Below the pieces are notes generated by a model, which saw nothing but the letters and a program-made list of their open reading frames with translations, did no database searches and was not told the origin of the DNA. 27,160 nt of DNA, taken from a virus. This document shows positions 18,979-26,068 of the stretch, piece after piece (positions within the stretch are counted from its first letter, which is position 1; each line of letters opens with the position of its first letter). The position numbers and the translations under genes were made by a program. The DNA is taken from positions 1 to 27,160 of IMG/VR virus record IMGVR_UViG_3300027969_000365. One strand, given 5' to 3'.

Positions 18979-19142
18979 TTGATCAGGTGGTCTCAGCAGA
19001 AAGTCCCTGGCCTAACACTGAGACAAAGACAGTTTTAGTTTGTCGGATTCCTAAACGAGAAGAGGACAAAAAGATGGGTGCAAACGAATTCACTGACAAA
19101 GATGGACGCATCTGCCGTTGGGTAGTTGTGAACGCAAAGTAA
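18975..19142 (+). CDS. Small protein with GTG start, unknown function
   Basis: A 55-residue protein, read from a GTG at 18975 that overlaps the preceding TGA (GTGA). The TAA at 19140-19142 shares a base with the next ATG (TAATG). The sequence has alternating strands (TKTVLVCRIPKRE and GRICRWVVVNAK) separated by a Lys/Asp-rich turn. Two cysteines (C23, C47) are present. The same GTGA coupling is used for the methyltransferase at 6831. I recognise no family; the double overlap and clean open frame are the evidence for a gene. Confidence 0.65.
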   Translation: MIDQVVSAESPWPNTETKTVLVCRIPKREEDKKMGANEFTDKDGRICRWVVVNAK

Positions 19143-19629
19143 TGGACCCCATAACGGCTTTTATGGCGGCACAAGCTGCTGTTGCTGGAATAAAAAAGCC
19201 ATTGCTCTTGGTAAAGACATCCACGGCCTATACAAAGAATTCAGCGGTTTTTATCAAGCAGCGGATACAGTTCACCTAGCAAGCAGCAAAGCCAGGATTG
19301 CGAGCATAGGAAAGACAGATGCACAAATCAGTTCTCAGGCTCTACAGATTGCAATGGCATCTAAAGCATTGCGGGAACATGAGAAGGAACTGAAGGACAT
19401 TCTCTTTTATTCGGGGAATGCCCAGGTTTGGGAAGAGATGATGGCAGAGCGCACCAGGATGATCAAGGAGCGCAACACGCTAGAGAGAGAAGAAGCGGAG
19501 CGCAAACAAAAGGACAAGGAAGTGAAAGTTGCAATCATTATGAACACACTCTGGATTTCTGGTGCATCAGCTATCGTTGTTCCGTTACTGAGTATTACGG
19601 TTCACGTTATAACGAACAGGGGTTTTTGA
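19142..19629 (+). CDS. Membrane/coiled-coil protein split by a -1 frameshift at A_AAA_AAG
   Basis: The ATG at 19142 (TAATG coupled) opens a 45-codon frame that ends at TAG 19277-19279. At codons 18-19 it carries the slippery heptamer A_AAA_AAG (19192-19198), correctly phased. Slipping back one base there joins it to the -1 frame, open to TGA 19627-19629, giving 162 residues: a helical N-terminus (MDPITAFMAAQAAVAGIKK), a coiled-coil centre rich in Glu/Lys/Arg (about 91-127), and a C-terminal hydrophobic segment (SGASAIVVPLLSITVHVI). The -1 frame has no ATG/GTG/TTG before 19354, yet its codons upstream of that point read as the same kind of protein. It is either programmed frameshifting or an indel or sequencing error in the A-run. 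Confidence 0.7.
19192..19198 (+). promoter_or_regulatory. Slippery heptamer A_AAA_AAG for -1 frameshift
   Basis: In the frame of the ATG at 19142 the codons are ATA AAA AAG, so the heptamer A AAA AAG is in the phase needed for simultaneous tRNA-Lys slippage. A_AAA_AAG is one of the most efficient bacterial -1 sites (dnaX uses it). I see no strong stem-loop just downstream and no clear internal Shine-Dalgarno upstream, so efficiency is uncertain. Confidence 0.6.
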
Positions 19630-19630
19630 T

Positions 19631-19978
19631 ATGAGCGAAGAGAAAATCCAAGCAATGGAAACAAAAAGCGCCTTGGTTGAGAAAATCACATTTGCTTTGT
19701 TGCCGCTATTGTTTTCGTGCGTGGTTTATCTCATGTCGGCTCTGTCTAACCTGTCCCACGAAGTCACTATTCTCAATAGCAAAATAAGCTTGGTGGTGAC
19801 CTCTGACAACAAGCAAGCAAGCAACACGGGCGCTGAGTTGGCAAGGGAAAAGTTACGCCAAGACTTGGAAAAAGAAATCCAAAAAAACAGGGATGACATT
19901 CAAGTCAACCGTCTGCACATTGCCATTTTGGAAGACAGGGCCGGGATGAAAACCACGTTTAAAAAGGAAGATAAATGA
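19631..19978 (+). CDS. Small membrane protein with coiled coil, lysis-region
   Basis: A 115-residue protein. A hydrophobic segment ITFALLPLLFSCVVYLMSAL (19-38) is preceded by a short charged N-terminus and followed by a charged helical domain with coiled-coil character (about 40-105, EKLRQDLEKEIQKNRDDIQV). CAGGGG lies about 9 nt upstream. It stands between the split membrane protein and the holin and is coupled to the holin gene by ATGA. A role as an accessory holin, inner-membrane spanin or antiholin is possible from topology; none is shown. Confidence 0.75.
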   Translation: MSEEKIQAMETKSALVEKITFALLPLLFSCVVYLMSALSNLSHEVTILNSKISLVVTSDNKQASNTGAELAREKLRQDLEKEIQKNRDDIQVNRLHIAILEDRAGMKTTFKKEDK

Positions 19979-20487
19979 TTCCAATCATCGGCGCACTACT
20001 CAGCACGTTAGCTGAAAGCGGTTTAGGACTGCTATCCAGCGCTATCCAGGCCAAGGGTAAGGAGGTGGTCGAAAACACGCTAGGCGTGAAGATTCCCGAC
20101 AATCCAACTCCCGCTGATGTTGAGCGCTTGCGTGAGTTGCAGTATCAGCACGAAGAGCGCCTGATTGAATTGGGTATTGAGAAGGCCAAGTTAGAGATGG
20201 CCGAGTTGGAACTGCTGGCAAGGGCGGCACAGTCTGATGCGGAGAACGTTACAGACCGTTGGCAGGCAGACATGAACTCTGATTCATGGCTCTCAAAGAA
20301 CATTCGGCCTATGAGCCTTATAGCCATATTTATGGGCTATTTCCTGTTTGCCATGATGAGCGCCTACGGCCTCAACGCCAACGAGTCCTATGTGACCCTG
20401 CTGGGTAACTGGGGAATGCTAATCATGGGCGCTTACTTTGGTGGCAGAACGGTAGAGAAGCTGGCAGAAATGAGGAGTTCAAAATGA
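19975..20487 (+). CDS. Holin (GTA-type, 3TM family)
   Basis: A 170-residue membrane protein expected to make holes in the inner membrane at lysis. An N-terminal hydrophobic helix (about 1-22) is followed by a charged coiled-coil-like region (45-95), the motif DRWQADMNSDSWLSKNIRP (94-112), and two transmembrane helices (about 113-132 and 139-157), ending GGRTVEKLAE. This pattern is that of the 3TM holin family first named in gene-transfer agents. AAGGA precedes the ATG, which overlaps the preceding stop (ATGA). The endolysin gene follows with another ATGA overlap, a classical lysis pair. Confidence 0.88.
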   Translation: MIPIIGALLSTLAESGLGLLSSAIQAKGKEVVENTLGVKIPDNPTPADVERLRELQYQHEERLIELGIEKAKLEMAELELLARAAQSDAENVTDRWQADMNSDSWLSKNIRPMSLIAIFMGYFLFAMMSAYGLNANESYVTLLGNWGMLIMGAYFGGRTVEKLAEMRSSK

Positions 20488-20822
20488 GCCTAAGTCAAGA
20501 GCAGGCAGCTTTCCTGCTGGATATGTGCAAGCTGATCCAGCACGCCACAGAACAGGGTTTTATGGTCACTGGTGGCGAGTTAGCCCGTACACCGGAGCAG
20601 CAGGCCATCTACGTTAAGACAGGTCGGTCTAAGACCATGAACTCTATCCACCTAAAGCGGTGCGCGATGGACTTAAACTTCTTCAAGGATGGAAAAATAA
20701 TCTGGGACAAAGCTATCCTGGCTCCGATTGGAGCCTACTGGGAAAGCCTGTACCCAAAGAACCGCTGGGGCGGTAACTTCAGATCGCTGGTGGATTGCCC
20801 ACACTTTGAACGAAACATATGA
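20484..20822 (+). CDS. Endolysin, M15-type zinc peptidase
   Basis: A 112-residue L-alanyl-D-glutamate or D-Ala-type peptidase that cuts peptidoglycan peptide bridges, related to the T5 endolysin group. The zinc ligands and catalytic region are visible as SIHLKRCAMDLNF (H56 and D63) and DCPHFE (D104, H107). RTPEQQ (35-40) is a common motif upstream of the site. There is no signal peptide or wall-binding domain, as usual for endolysins of phages of Gram-negative bacteria, so it depends on the holin encoded just upstream. GAGGAG provides a strong ribosome-binding site. Confidence 0.9.
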   Translation: MSLSQEQAAFLLDMCKLIQHATEQGFMVTGGELARTPEQQAIYVKTGRSKTMNSIHLKRCAMDLNFFKDGKIIWDKAILAPIGAYWESLYPKNRWGGNFRSLVDCPHFERNI

Positions 20823-24364: not shown

Positions 24365-26068
24365 ATGTCTAAAGGCGGCGGCAGCACAACTTCAACAACA
24401 TCCATTGACCCTGATCTGAAGAAGGCTTATCTAGCCAACATCGGACAGGCTCAGAGCGTGGCTGGTGCATTACCAGTACGGCAATTTGCAGGGTTCAACC
24501 CGCTGTACACGGCGGGTGAAGAGCAACTGATAAATACAGGACTTAATGGCCCAGGTATTCAGTCAGTTGACCAGGCTGCATATCAAACTGCTCAAGCTGG
24601 AGGCTACCAACCTCAGATGGTTGGAGGAATTAGCGGTGGACCGGCGGCAATGGCTGGTGCAACTGGTTACCAAGCATCTAATTTTGGTGGAGCGCAAACA
24701 GGACCAGCATCAATGGCCGGTGCAATGGGCTATCAGGCAGCTAATTTTGGTGGAGCGCAAACTGGACCGGCAGCACTTGCACGTTCACAAGGTTATCAGG
24801 CAGCTAATTTTGCTGGAGCGCAAACAGGCCCAGCAGCATTAGCTGGCGCAATGGGTTATGGTGCAAGTGACGTTAATGCGGCGCAGGCAAACATGGGTGA
24901 CATTGGGCGCTACATGAACCCATACTCGCAAAACGTCACTCAAAATGCTTTGTCTGATTTAGAAAAACAGCGTCAAAAATCCTTGCTTCAAATTTCACAG
25001 CAGGCCGGTGCTGCAAAAGCATTTGGTGGATCGCGCCAAGGAGTTGCAGAGGCACAAACCAACATTGGATATGGGACTGAGGCTGGCAATTTATCGTCAA
25101 AATTAAATGAGCAGGCTTACAACAATGCTATGGCTGCGCAGCAGCAAGACCTTGCACGCCAACAGCAAGCTGCAATGCAGAATGCTGCGCAACGTACATC
25201 TGCCTCACAGTTTGGCGCTGGTGCAGCAAACCAAGCTGCATTGGTAAATGCCGCTGCTAAAAATGCAATGGCTCAATTTAATACTGGCAATTTGCAGCAA
25301 GCCGGTTTGAGTAATGCAGCATCACAAAATGCTGCCTCACAGTTTGGCGCTGGTGCAGCGAACCAGGCTGCACTAACTAATGCCGCTGCTCAAAATGCAA
25401 TGCAACAGTTTAATACTGGAAATTTGCAGCAAGCCGGTTTGAGTAATGCAGCATCACAAAATGCAGCTTCACAATTTGGCGCTGGTGCAGCGAACCAGGC
25501 TGCACTAACTAATGCCGCTGCTCAAAACGCAATGGCTCAATTCAATGTTGGTAACCTCCAGCAAGCCGGTTTGACTAACATGGCCGCACGAAATGCAGCA
25601 TCACAGTTTGGCGCTGGCGCACAAAACCAGGCTCAGTTAACTAATGCTGCCTCTATAAATGCAATGAATCAATACAATGCGGGACTCGCGCAGCAGTCTG
25701 CACTGGCTAACCAAAACATTGGGCTTGCTGGCGCTCAGTTTAGGCTTGGCGCTGCAAACCAGTTGGGTAATCTTGGAACTCAGCAGCAGGGTCTGCGAAT
25801 GAGTGGTGCGCAAGCAGCAATGCAAGCTGGAAGTGCGCGTCAGCAGTTGGAGCAGGCTCAGATGGATGCAATGCGCAACATCGGTATGGAGAAACTGGGG
25901 ATTTCATCTGGCGCTCTTTCCGGTCAGCTACCCAACCTTGGCATGACTCAGACGCAACCGTACTACCGTAACCAGGTTGGTGGTGCTTTGGGTGGTGCTG
26001 CTGCTGGTTACCAGTTTGGTGGACCAATTGGCGCTGGTATCGGCGGTCTGCTTGGATACTTTGGATAA
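24365..26068 (+). CDS. Ala/Gln/Asn/Gly-rich internal virion (ejection) protein with two repeat arrays
   Basis: A 567-residue protein with AGGAG upstream. Residues 92-175 are four 21-residue repeats of the type GPAxMAGAxGYQAxNFxGAQT. Residues about 180-270 are charged and helical. Residues 280-455 are four 44-residue repeats, each two related 22-residue halves (ASQFGAGAANQAALxNAAxx and MxQFNTGNLQQAGLSNAASQ type). The C-terminus (about 538-567) is a Gly-zipper-like hydrophobic segment GGALGGAAAGYQFGGPIGAG. Alanine-rich helical repeats plus a membrane-active Gly-rich end fit proteins injected with the genome to cross the cell envelope. This is inference from composition and gene position. Confidence 0.75.
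   Translation: MSKGGGSTTSTTSIDPDLKKAYLANIGQAQSVAGALPVRQFAGFNPLYTAGEEQLINTGLNGPGIQSVDQAAYQTAQAGGYQPQMVGGISGGPAAMAGATGYQASNFGGAQTGPASMAGAMGYQAANFGGAQTGPAALARSQGYQAANFAGAQTGPAALAGAMGYGASDVNAAQANMGDIGRYMNPYSQNVTQNALSDLEKQRQKSLLQISQQAGAAKAFGGSRQGVAEAQTNIGYGTEAGNLSSKLNEQAYNNAMAAQQQDLARQQQAAMQNAAQRTSASQFGAGAANQAALVNAAAKNAMAQFNTGNLQQAGLSNAASQNAASQFGAGAANQAALTNAAAQNAMQQFNTGNLQQAGLSNAASQNAASQFGAGAANQAALTNAAAQNAMAQFNVGNLQQAGLTNMAARNAASQFGAGAQNQAQLTNAASINAMNQYNAGLAQQSALANQNIGLAGAQFRLGAANQLGNLGTQQQGLRMSGAQAAMQAGSARQQLEQAQMDAMRNIGMEKLGISSGALSGQLPNLGMTQTQPYYRNQVGGALGGAAAGYQFGGPIGAGIGGLLGYFG
24638..24889 (+). repeat. Four 63-bp coding repeats
   Basis: Four consecutive 63-bp units encode the GPA[AS][ML]A-x-GY-x-A 21-residue repeats of the large Ala/Gln-rich protein. 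The second unit is a close DNA-level match to the first and third, and the fourth has diverged in its second half. Confidence 0.85.
25202..25729 (+). repeat. Four 132-bp coding repeats with 66-bp halves
   Basis: Units start at 25202, 25334, 25466 and 25598, each exactly 132 bp (44 residues). Long stretches are identical between units 2 and 3 (for example the DNA coding GAGAANQAALTNAAAQNAM), so the array has expanded or been homogenised recently, unlike the old 60-bp array at 15933. Each unit holds two related 22-residue halves. Confidence 0.9.

Follow-up and report, generated by a model that had tools for sequence, protein, structure and literature searches.

A gene of the phage lysis region split at A_AAA_AAG and very probably expressed by programmed -1 ribosomal frameshifting

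The 27,160-base virus record IMGVR_UViG_3300027969_000365 (G000, a freshwater phage; the whole of this stretch is called the window) carries at 19142–19629 a gene divided between two reading frames, which raises the question of whether the halves are joined during expression and how, or whether the gene is simply broken. An earlier note had described an ATG-started frame of 45 codons and a -1 frame of 143 codons that meet at an in-phase A_AAA_AAG, and this layout is confirmed base for base. The elements are:

19074–19142, + strand: upstream open reading frame of 22 codons, MGANEFTDKDGRICRWVVVNAK, with pN/pS 0.49 against 1.1–1.2 in the other frames
19142–19279, + strand: 0-frame open reading frame of 45 codons, MDPITAFMAAQAAVAGIKK followed by a tail, the first 19 codons of which form helix 1
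19192–19198, + strand: slippery heptamer A_AAA_AAG at codons 18–19, in -1 phase relative to the ATG at 19142
19198–19629, + strand: -1 frame of 143 codons plus TGA, encoding the remainder of the helical protein including the C-terminal membrane segment

The 0 frame starts with ATG at 19142–19144, reads GGA ATA AAA AAG CCA around the slip site and ends with TAG at 19277–19279, while the -1 frame opens with GCC at 19198 and closes with TGA at 19627–19629. A reading-frame scan of the -1 frame finds no ATG, GTG or TTG between 19198 and 19354, the earliest being at 19354, and fusion of the two frames at the heptamer yields a product of 162 residues; the earlier note was correct on both points. The TAA of the upstream 22-codon frame overlaps the ATG at 19142 (TAATG), which makes it probable that translation of the split gene is coupled to that of the small frame; in 61 of 102 relatives the same boundary is an AAATGA overlap. 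The 22-codon frame is conserved within the clade and may be the 3' part of some longer open reading frame.

Relatives were collected from IMG/VR with the fused protein and its relatives as queries, and by a second search with a DNA pattern taken within the main frame and therefore blind to the heptamer. The blind scan contributed 14 new gene sequences, and the heptamer is present in all 14. In all, 138 distinct gene sequences had upstream context, 102 of them with the heptamer and the break and 36 continuous. No relatives were found in genome_contigs, and tblastn with the fused protein at E < 0.01 gave no match among named phages, which appear only when a continuous homologue is the query.

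The motif ATA AAA AAG and the same break are invariant in all 102 distinct members of the clade, which strongly supports the earlier proposal of a programmed -1 frameshift. In these sequences the Gly codon immediately 5' of the heptamer occurs with each of the four third bases, and there is free variation in the codons for Val, Ala and Pro. Synonymous changes were counted on a tree of 91 of the 102 members with a total length of 6.5 substitutions per site: no change has occurred at either synonymous position of the heptamer, as compared with an average of 12.2 changes over a set of 96 further conserved degenerate codons and with 1–20 in the other Ile and Lys codons. The heptamer is thus conserved beyond chance.

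Purifying selection acts on both halves of the gene, pN/pS among the 102 clade members being 0.084 in the 0 frame 5' of the heptamer and, 3' of it, 0.094 in the -1 frame. Within the -1 frame constraint is strongest in the first 26 codons past the heptamer (pN/pS 0.046). The 0-frame tail, the 26 codons that follow the heptamer, has a pN/pS of 1.74 and the -1 frame upstream of the heptamer one of 5.6, so that both behave as non-coding, and the coding constraint changes frame at the heptamer. The tail is 26 codons long in 62 sequences and a single codon in 28, six continuous relatives being included in the count. Since the tail is unconstrained and variable in length, selection most likely acts on the full-length protein, although the conserved first 19 residues may have a role of their own. 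The earlier suggestion that slippage sets a ratio of two functional lysis products finds no support in such a tail; it is more likely that the shift serves as a gate on expression of the helical membrane protein in its full length.

Continuous homologues are found in Puniceispirillum phage HMO-2011, Roseobacter phage CRP-4, Limnohabitans phage DC31, Manatee Spring phages and sister contigs. Some of them have ATC AAA AAA GCA (L104 and L198) or, still in a single frame, a seven-A run in ATA AAA AAA GCA (L222, L224 and L245), and others have ATC AAA GCN. The broken clade is one base shorter here, ATA AAA AAG C, where a -1 slip restores the I-K-K-A encoded by L104. Relatives with an A-run that unites the two frames had been named in the earlier note as evidence against frameshifting; they do exist, but the seven-A sequences belong to a separate continuous branch that probably represents the ancestral state, and they do not refute it. 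Among 80 loci from a more distant branch there is no frame break, 78 reading through and two being cut by the contig end. A tree built without the heptamer places one gain of the break and one exit, and a single 1-nt loss probably created the slip site once.

The exit, the only one seen among 104 sequences, is represented by L012 and L077, which read through again with ATC AAA AAG GCC and a TTG start that overlaps the upstream stop as TTGA. In these two (L012:2980–3060 and L077:205–280) the heptamer is lost, and an extra T upstream puts the old ATG out of frame. The frame from the old ATG breaks at CCT TTT C GTT, similar to known +1 sites (UUU_CGU); a +1 shift at this place was considered and set aside, as the in-frame TTG yields a continuous protein.

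An RNA stem of 12 bp, a bulge and 4 bp, found by a conserved-helix scan, lies just downstream of the heptamer. The earlier note had overlooked it. It is made of the following parts:

19203–19206, + strand: 5' arm of the outer stem, 4 bp, 4 nt past the heptamer, with 19206 pairing to 19260
19207–19218, + strand: 5' arm of the inner stem, 12 bp, 8 nt past the heptamer
19247–19258, + strand: 3' arm of the inner stem, the two arms being separated by a 28-nt loop
19260–19263, + strand: 3' arm of the outer stem, following a 1-nt bulge at 19259

The key pairs at the foot of the stem are conserved in 97 of 102 clade sequences. Synonymous change is lowered in codons +3 to +21 (112 changes against 184 expected, permutation p = 5e-5), a region that coincides with the stem, while the continuous relatives, of which only 16 sequences were usable, show no synonymous reduction over the same codons. 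Among 52 distinct aligned sequences 92.4% of the cells of the stem are paired, as opposed to 37–57% in slid controls, and the covariation score is reached by none of 500 shuffles. At 19206/19260 the pair alternates between C-G and U-A, one or the other being present in 88 of the 91 sequences. When the element is left out of the tree, the two sites change 13 and 14 times singly and 14 times as a pair, and the concordance of this pair ranks first (tied) among 6,745 pairs of variable sites. Most sites lying between its arms show no linkage to this pair, which speaks against plain linkage as the cause.

The stem is present in the minimum-energy fold of each of the 50 representatives taken outside a group of five sequences described below, and 29 of 34 continuous relatives contain no stem pair at all. 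Column-permuted alignments fold more poorly in 200 of 200 trials. Judged by energy alone the stem is not exceptional: its free energy is modest (z -1.86, mean codon-shuffle z -0.60), and RNAalifold, with a consensus of only -3.7 kcal/mol, by itself recovers just part of it. An initial structure test in 60-nt windows found nothing, the window having stopped one base before the 3' arm. No SD-like motif is present in the 20 nt 5' of the heptamer in 98 of the 102 clade members, and no Rfam family or tRNA was found in the 27,160 bases.

The main stem base is missing from five sequences, the L042 group (L042, L051, L075, L076 and L078). These can fold an alternative compact hairpin in the same place, in which CCUUG pairs with CAAGG or UAAGG around AAGGAC/GUCUUU, possibly a replaced stimulator. 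An A-C mismatch at 19214/19251 occurs together with an outer C-G pair at 19206/19260 in 42 sequences and with an outer U-A pair in none of 91, and the stability of the stem may be kept within limits. Lowered synonymous change also reaches past the stem, over 19260–19318, to about codon +40. A pseudoknot is possible between bases +40 to +44 of the stem loop and bases +97 to +101, but both of its arms hardly vary.

The heptamer, its phase, its spacing and the stem agree with bacterial -1 frameshift signals, and A_AAA_AAG ranks in E. coli with the strongest and most shift-prone -1 sites (PMC4066793, PMC5009743). The conservation of the heptamer, the constraint in two frames, the single origin and the covarying stem are computational results, and on such sequence evidence the gene is very probably expressed by programmed -1 ribosomal frameshifting, in which ribosomes would slip at A_AAA_AAG under stimulation by the stem and the full-length protein would be made in limited amount.

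In the proposed mechanism, where the ribosomal nature of the slippage, its efficiency and its regulatory purpose are inferred, ribosomes would initiate at the ATG at 19142, probably in coupling to the stop of the small upstream frame, and on arriving at A_AAA_AAG (codons 18–19) would be held by the stem-loop that starts 4–8 nt downstream. Some would then slip back by one base, restore the ancestral I-K-K-A and complete the 162-residue, all-helical protein anchored in the membrane by its C-terminus, while those that do not slip would terminate after a short peptide with a tail that carries no selected sequence. The shift would thereby probably restrict or regulate the supply of the full-length protein and, through coupling, perhaps that of the next genes too.

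Other explanations of the split have to be weighed against this mechanism. The earlier note had offered as its alternative a loss or gain of an A or a read error, in which case the true gene would be continuous or dead. One-frame relatives with seven A or with ATC AAA AAA GCA do exist, but alignment of homologues goes against this explanation: the break is kept in 102 distinct sequences, the first 76 loci of which come from 52 metagenomes, purifying selection on the -1 frame is strong, and a different contig, L001, carries identical bases across the split-gene stretch. An error or a fresh indel has virtually no chance of being correct, and the relatives already refute it. Slippage of the RNA polymerase on the six A, giving a mixed mRNA pool from which some fused protein is translated, would explain why the A run is invariant. 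Polymerase slippage is described for A runs longer than 7 (PMC3711429), and a run of six is short for it; it would have no need of a downstream stem, whereas a conserved, covarying stem at the usual spacing suits a ribosomal stimulator, and the heptamer sits exactly in the ribosomal -1 phase. Transcriptional slippage is accordingly rated as very unlikely. A further possibility is that the locus yields two proteins, one a short N-terminal peptide and the other the main frame started independently at a non-canonical codon or at the ATG at 19354, which would fit frames that differ and a 0-frame peptide conserved as far as the heptamer. The strongest constraint on the -1 frame, however, begins at the heptamer, no shared start in that frame precedes it (chance ones occur only in L018 and L074), L012, L074 and L079 have Leu in place of the internal Met, and in continuous relatives a single protein covers both halves, which makes separate initiation extremely unlikely.

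The explanation with most weight among the alternatives concerns purpose and is compatible with the programmed -1 mechanism: a 1-nt loss may have happened to create an adequate slip site, so that the shift does take place but confers no regulatory advantage. The origin is single and clade-specific, continuous relatives manage without the break, the tail of the short form is unconstrained and L012 and L077 have apparently returned to one frame. Against this, the downstream stem is found only in the clade and is kept through compensatory change, and just one exit is seen although A-runs mutate readily. A mere accident is therefore unlikely, though far from negligible, and the persistence of the break could in part reflect slippage that is tolerated rather than advantageous. 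The fuller scenario, in which the loss of a single base in a freshwater clade turned a continuous gene into a frameshift-gated one, compensatory change has kept the stem and slippage at codons 18–19 would set the amount or timing of the membrane protein encoded beside the holin, is an evenly balanced proposition.

The gene product is predicted to be a helical protein with a C-terminal membrane anchor. The fused protein matches PHROG 32327 (E 3.7e-9, residues 1–137 on profile positions 2–130 of 152), and the similarity to this family and to the continuous homologues spans both halves. The model of the continuous relative L104 is all-helical with a mean pLDDT of 71 and places the slip site within helix 1. 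Pfam and PHROG searches with the fused protein gave no match to a lysis family, including holins and Rz-like spanins, a fold search of the PDB gave no match with E below 0.5, and the best BFVD matches are uncharacterised phage proteins. The genes that follow are:

19631–19978, + strand: next gene, 115 residues, with an N-terminal membrane segment and a coiled coil recognized by eye and a very weak Rz-like spanin match (E 0.095)
19975–20487, + strand: holin (PHROG 3427; GTA_holin_3TM below cut-off)
20484–20822, + strand: M15-type peptidase endolysin

The split gene thus belongs to a series of small genes terminating in the holin and the endolysin, and in several other phages, too, members of the PHROG 32327-like family lie near genes for a holin, a lysozyme or an M15 peptidase. 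As no lysis family is matched, the label “lysis-related” depends on gene position, from which a direct role in lysis is inferred as putative. Elsewhere in the window, 24365–26068 encodes what is probably a virion protein, with numerous internal repeats that are almost identical to one another (QFGAGAANQAALTNAAAQNAM and similar).

If the proposed mechanism is correct, the clade would offer a traceable birth of a programmed frameshift that acts as an expression gate instead of a maker of two products. The origin can be followed because sister lineages retain the continuous gene: a 1-nt loss, the heptamer, the stem and one later loss. In such contigs gene finders are likely to report the split protein as truncated or to overlook it. 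A survey of literature titles and abstracts on frameshifting together with lysis cassettes or uncultivated viruses gave no report of the split gene, and none of the papers found describes a frameshift in this gene family.

The nearest relatives of the gene, the family of PHROG 32327 and HMO-2011 gp60, share its N-terminal MIDPxxAF...GIK...GKD pattern and C-terminal membrane segment, but are in one frame in every other branch examined. The same heptamer is used by dnaX of E. coli, an unrelated gene, and both have a downstream stem-loop at short spacing. The dnaX signal includes an upstream SD, while the phage gene has no SD-like element; the unshifted product of dnaX is a functional shorter subunit, while the phage gene shifts at codon 19 of 162 and without a shift gives a short peptide. 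The known cases of frameshifting in tailed phages are mainly tail chaperones and capsid and tail proteins, with two working products. The tail assembly chaperone G/GT of lambda and many tailed phages likewise has a conserved -1 frameshift, which lies close to the 3' end and gives rise to two functional proteins, unlike the shift close to the 5' end in the lysis-region gene. In prfB, the gene of release factor 2, a shift near the start codon gates the full protein as in the phage gene, and the short product has no known function. The prfB shift is a +1 at CUU_UGA with a stop-codon sensor and an SD-like stimulator, whereas the phage shift is -1 and lacks an SD, and most members of the phage clade have no stop codon at the slip site. 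The kind of frameshift is thus known; the member, the position near the start codon and the traceable origin are new.
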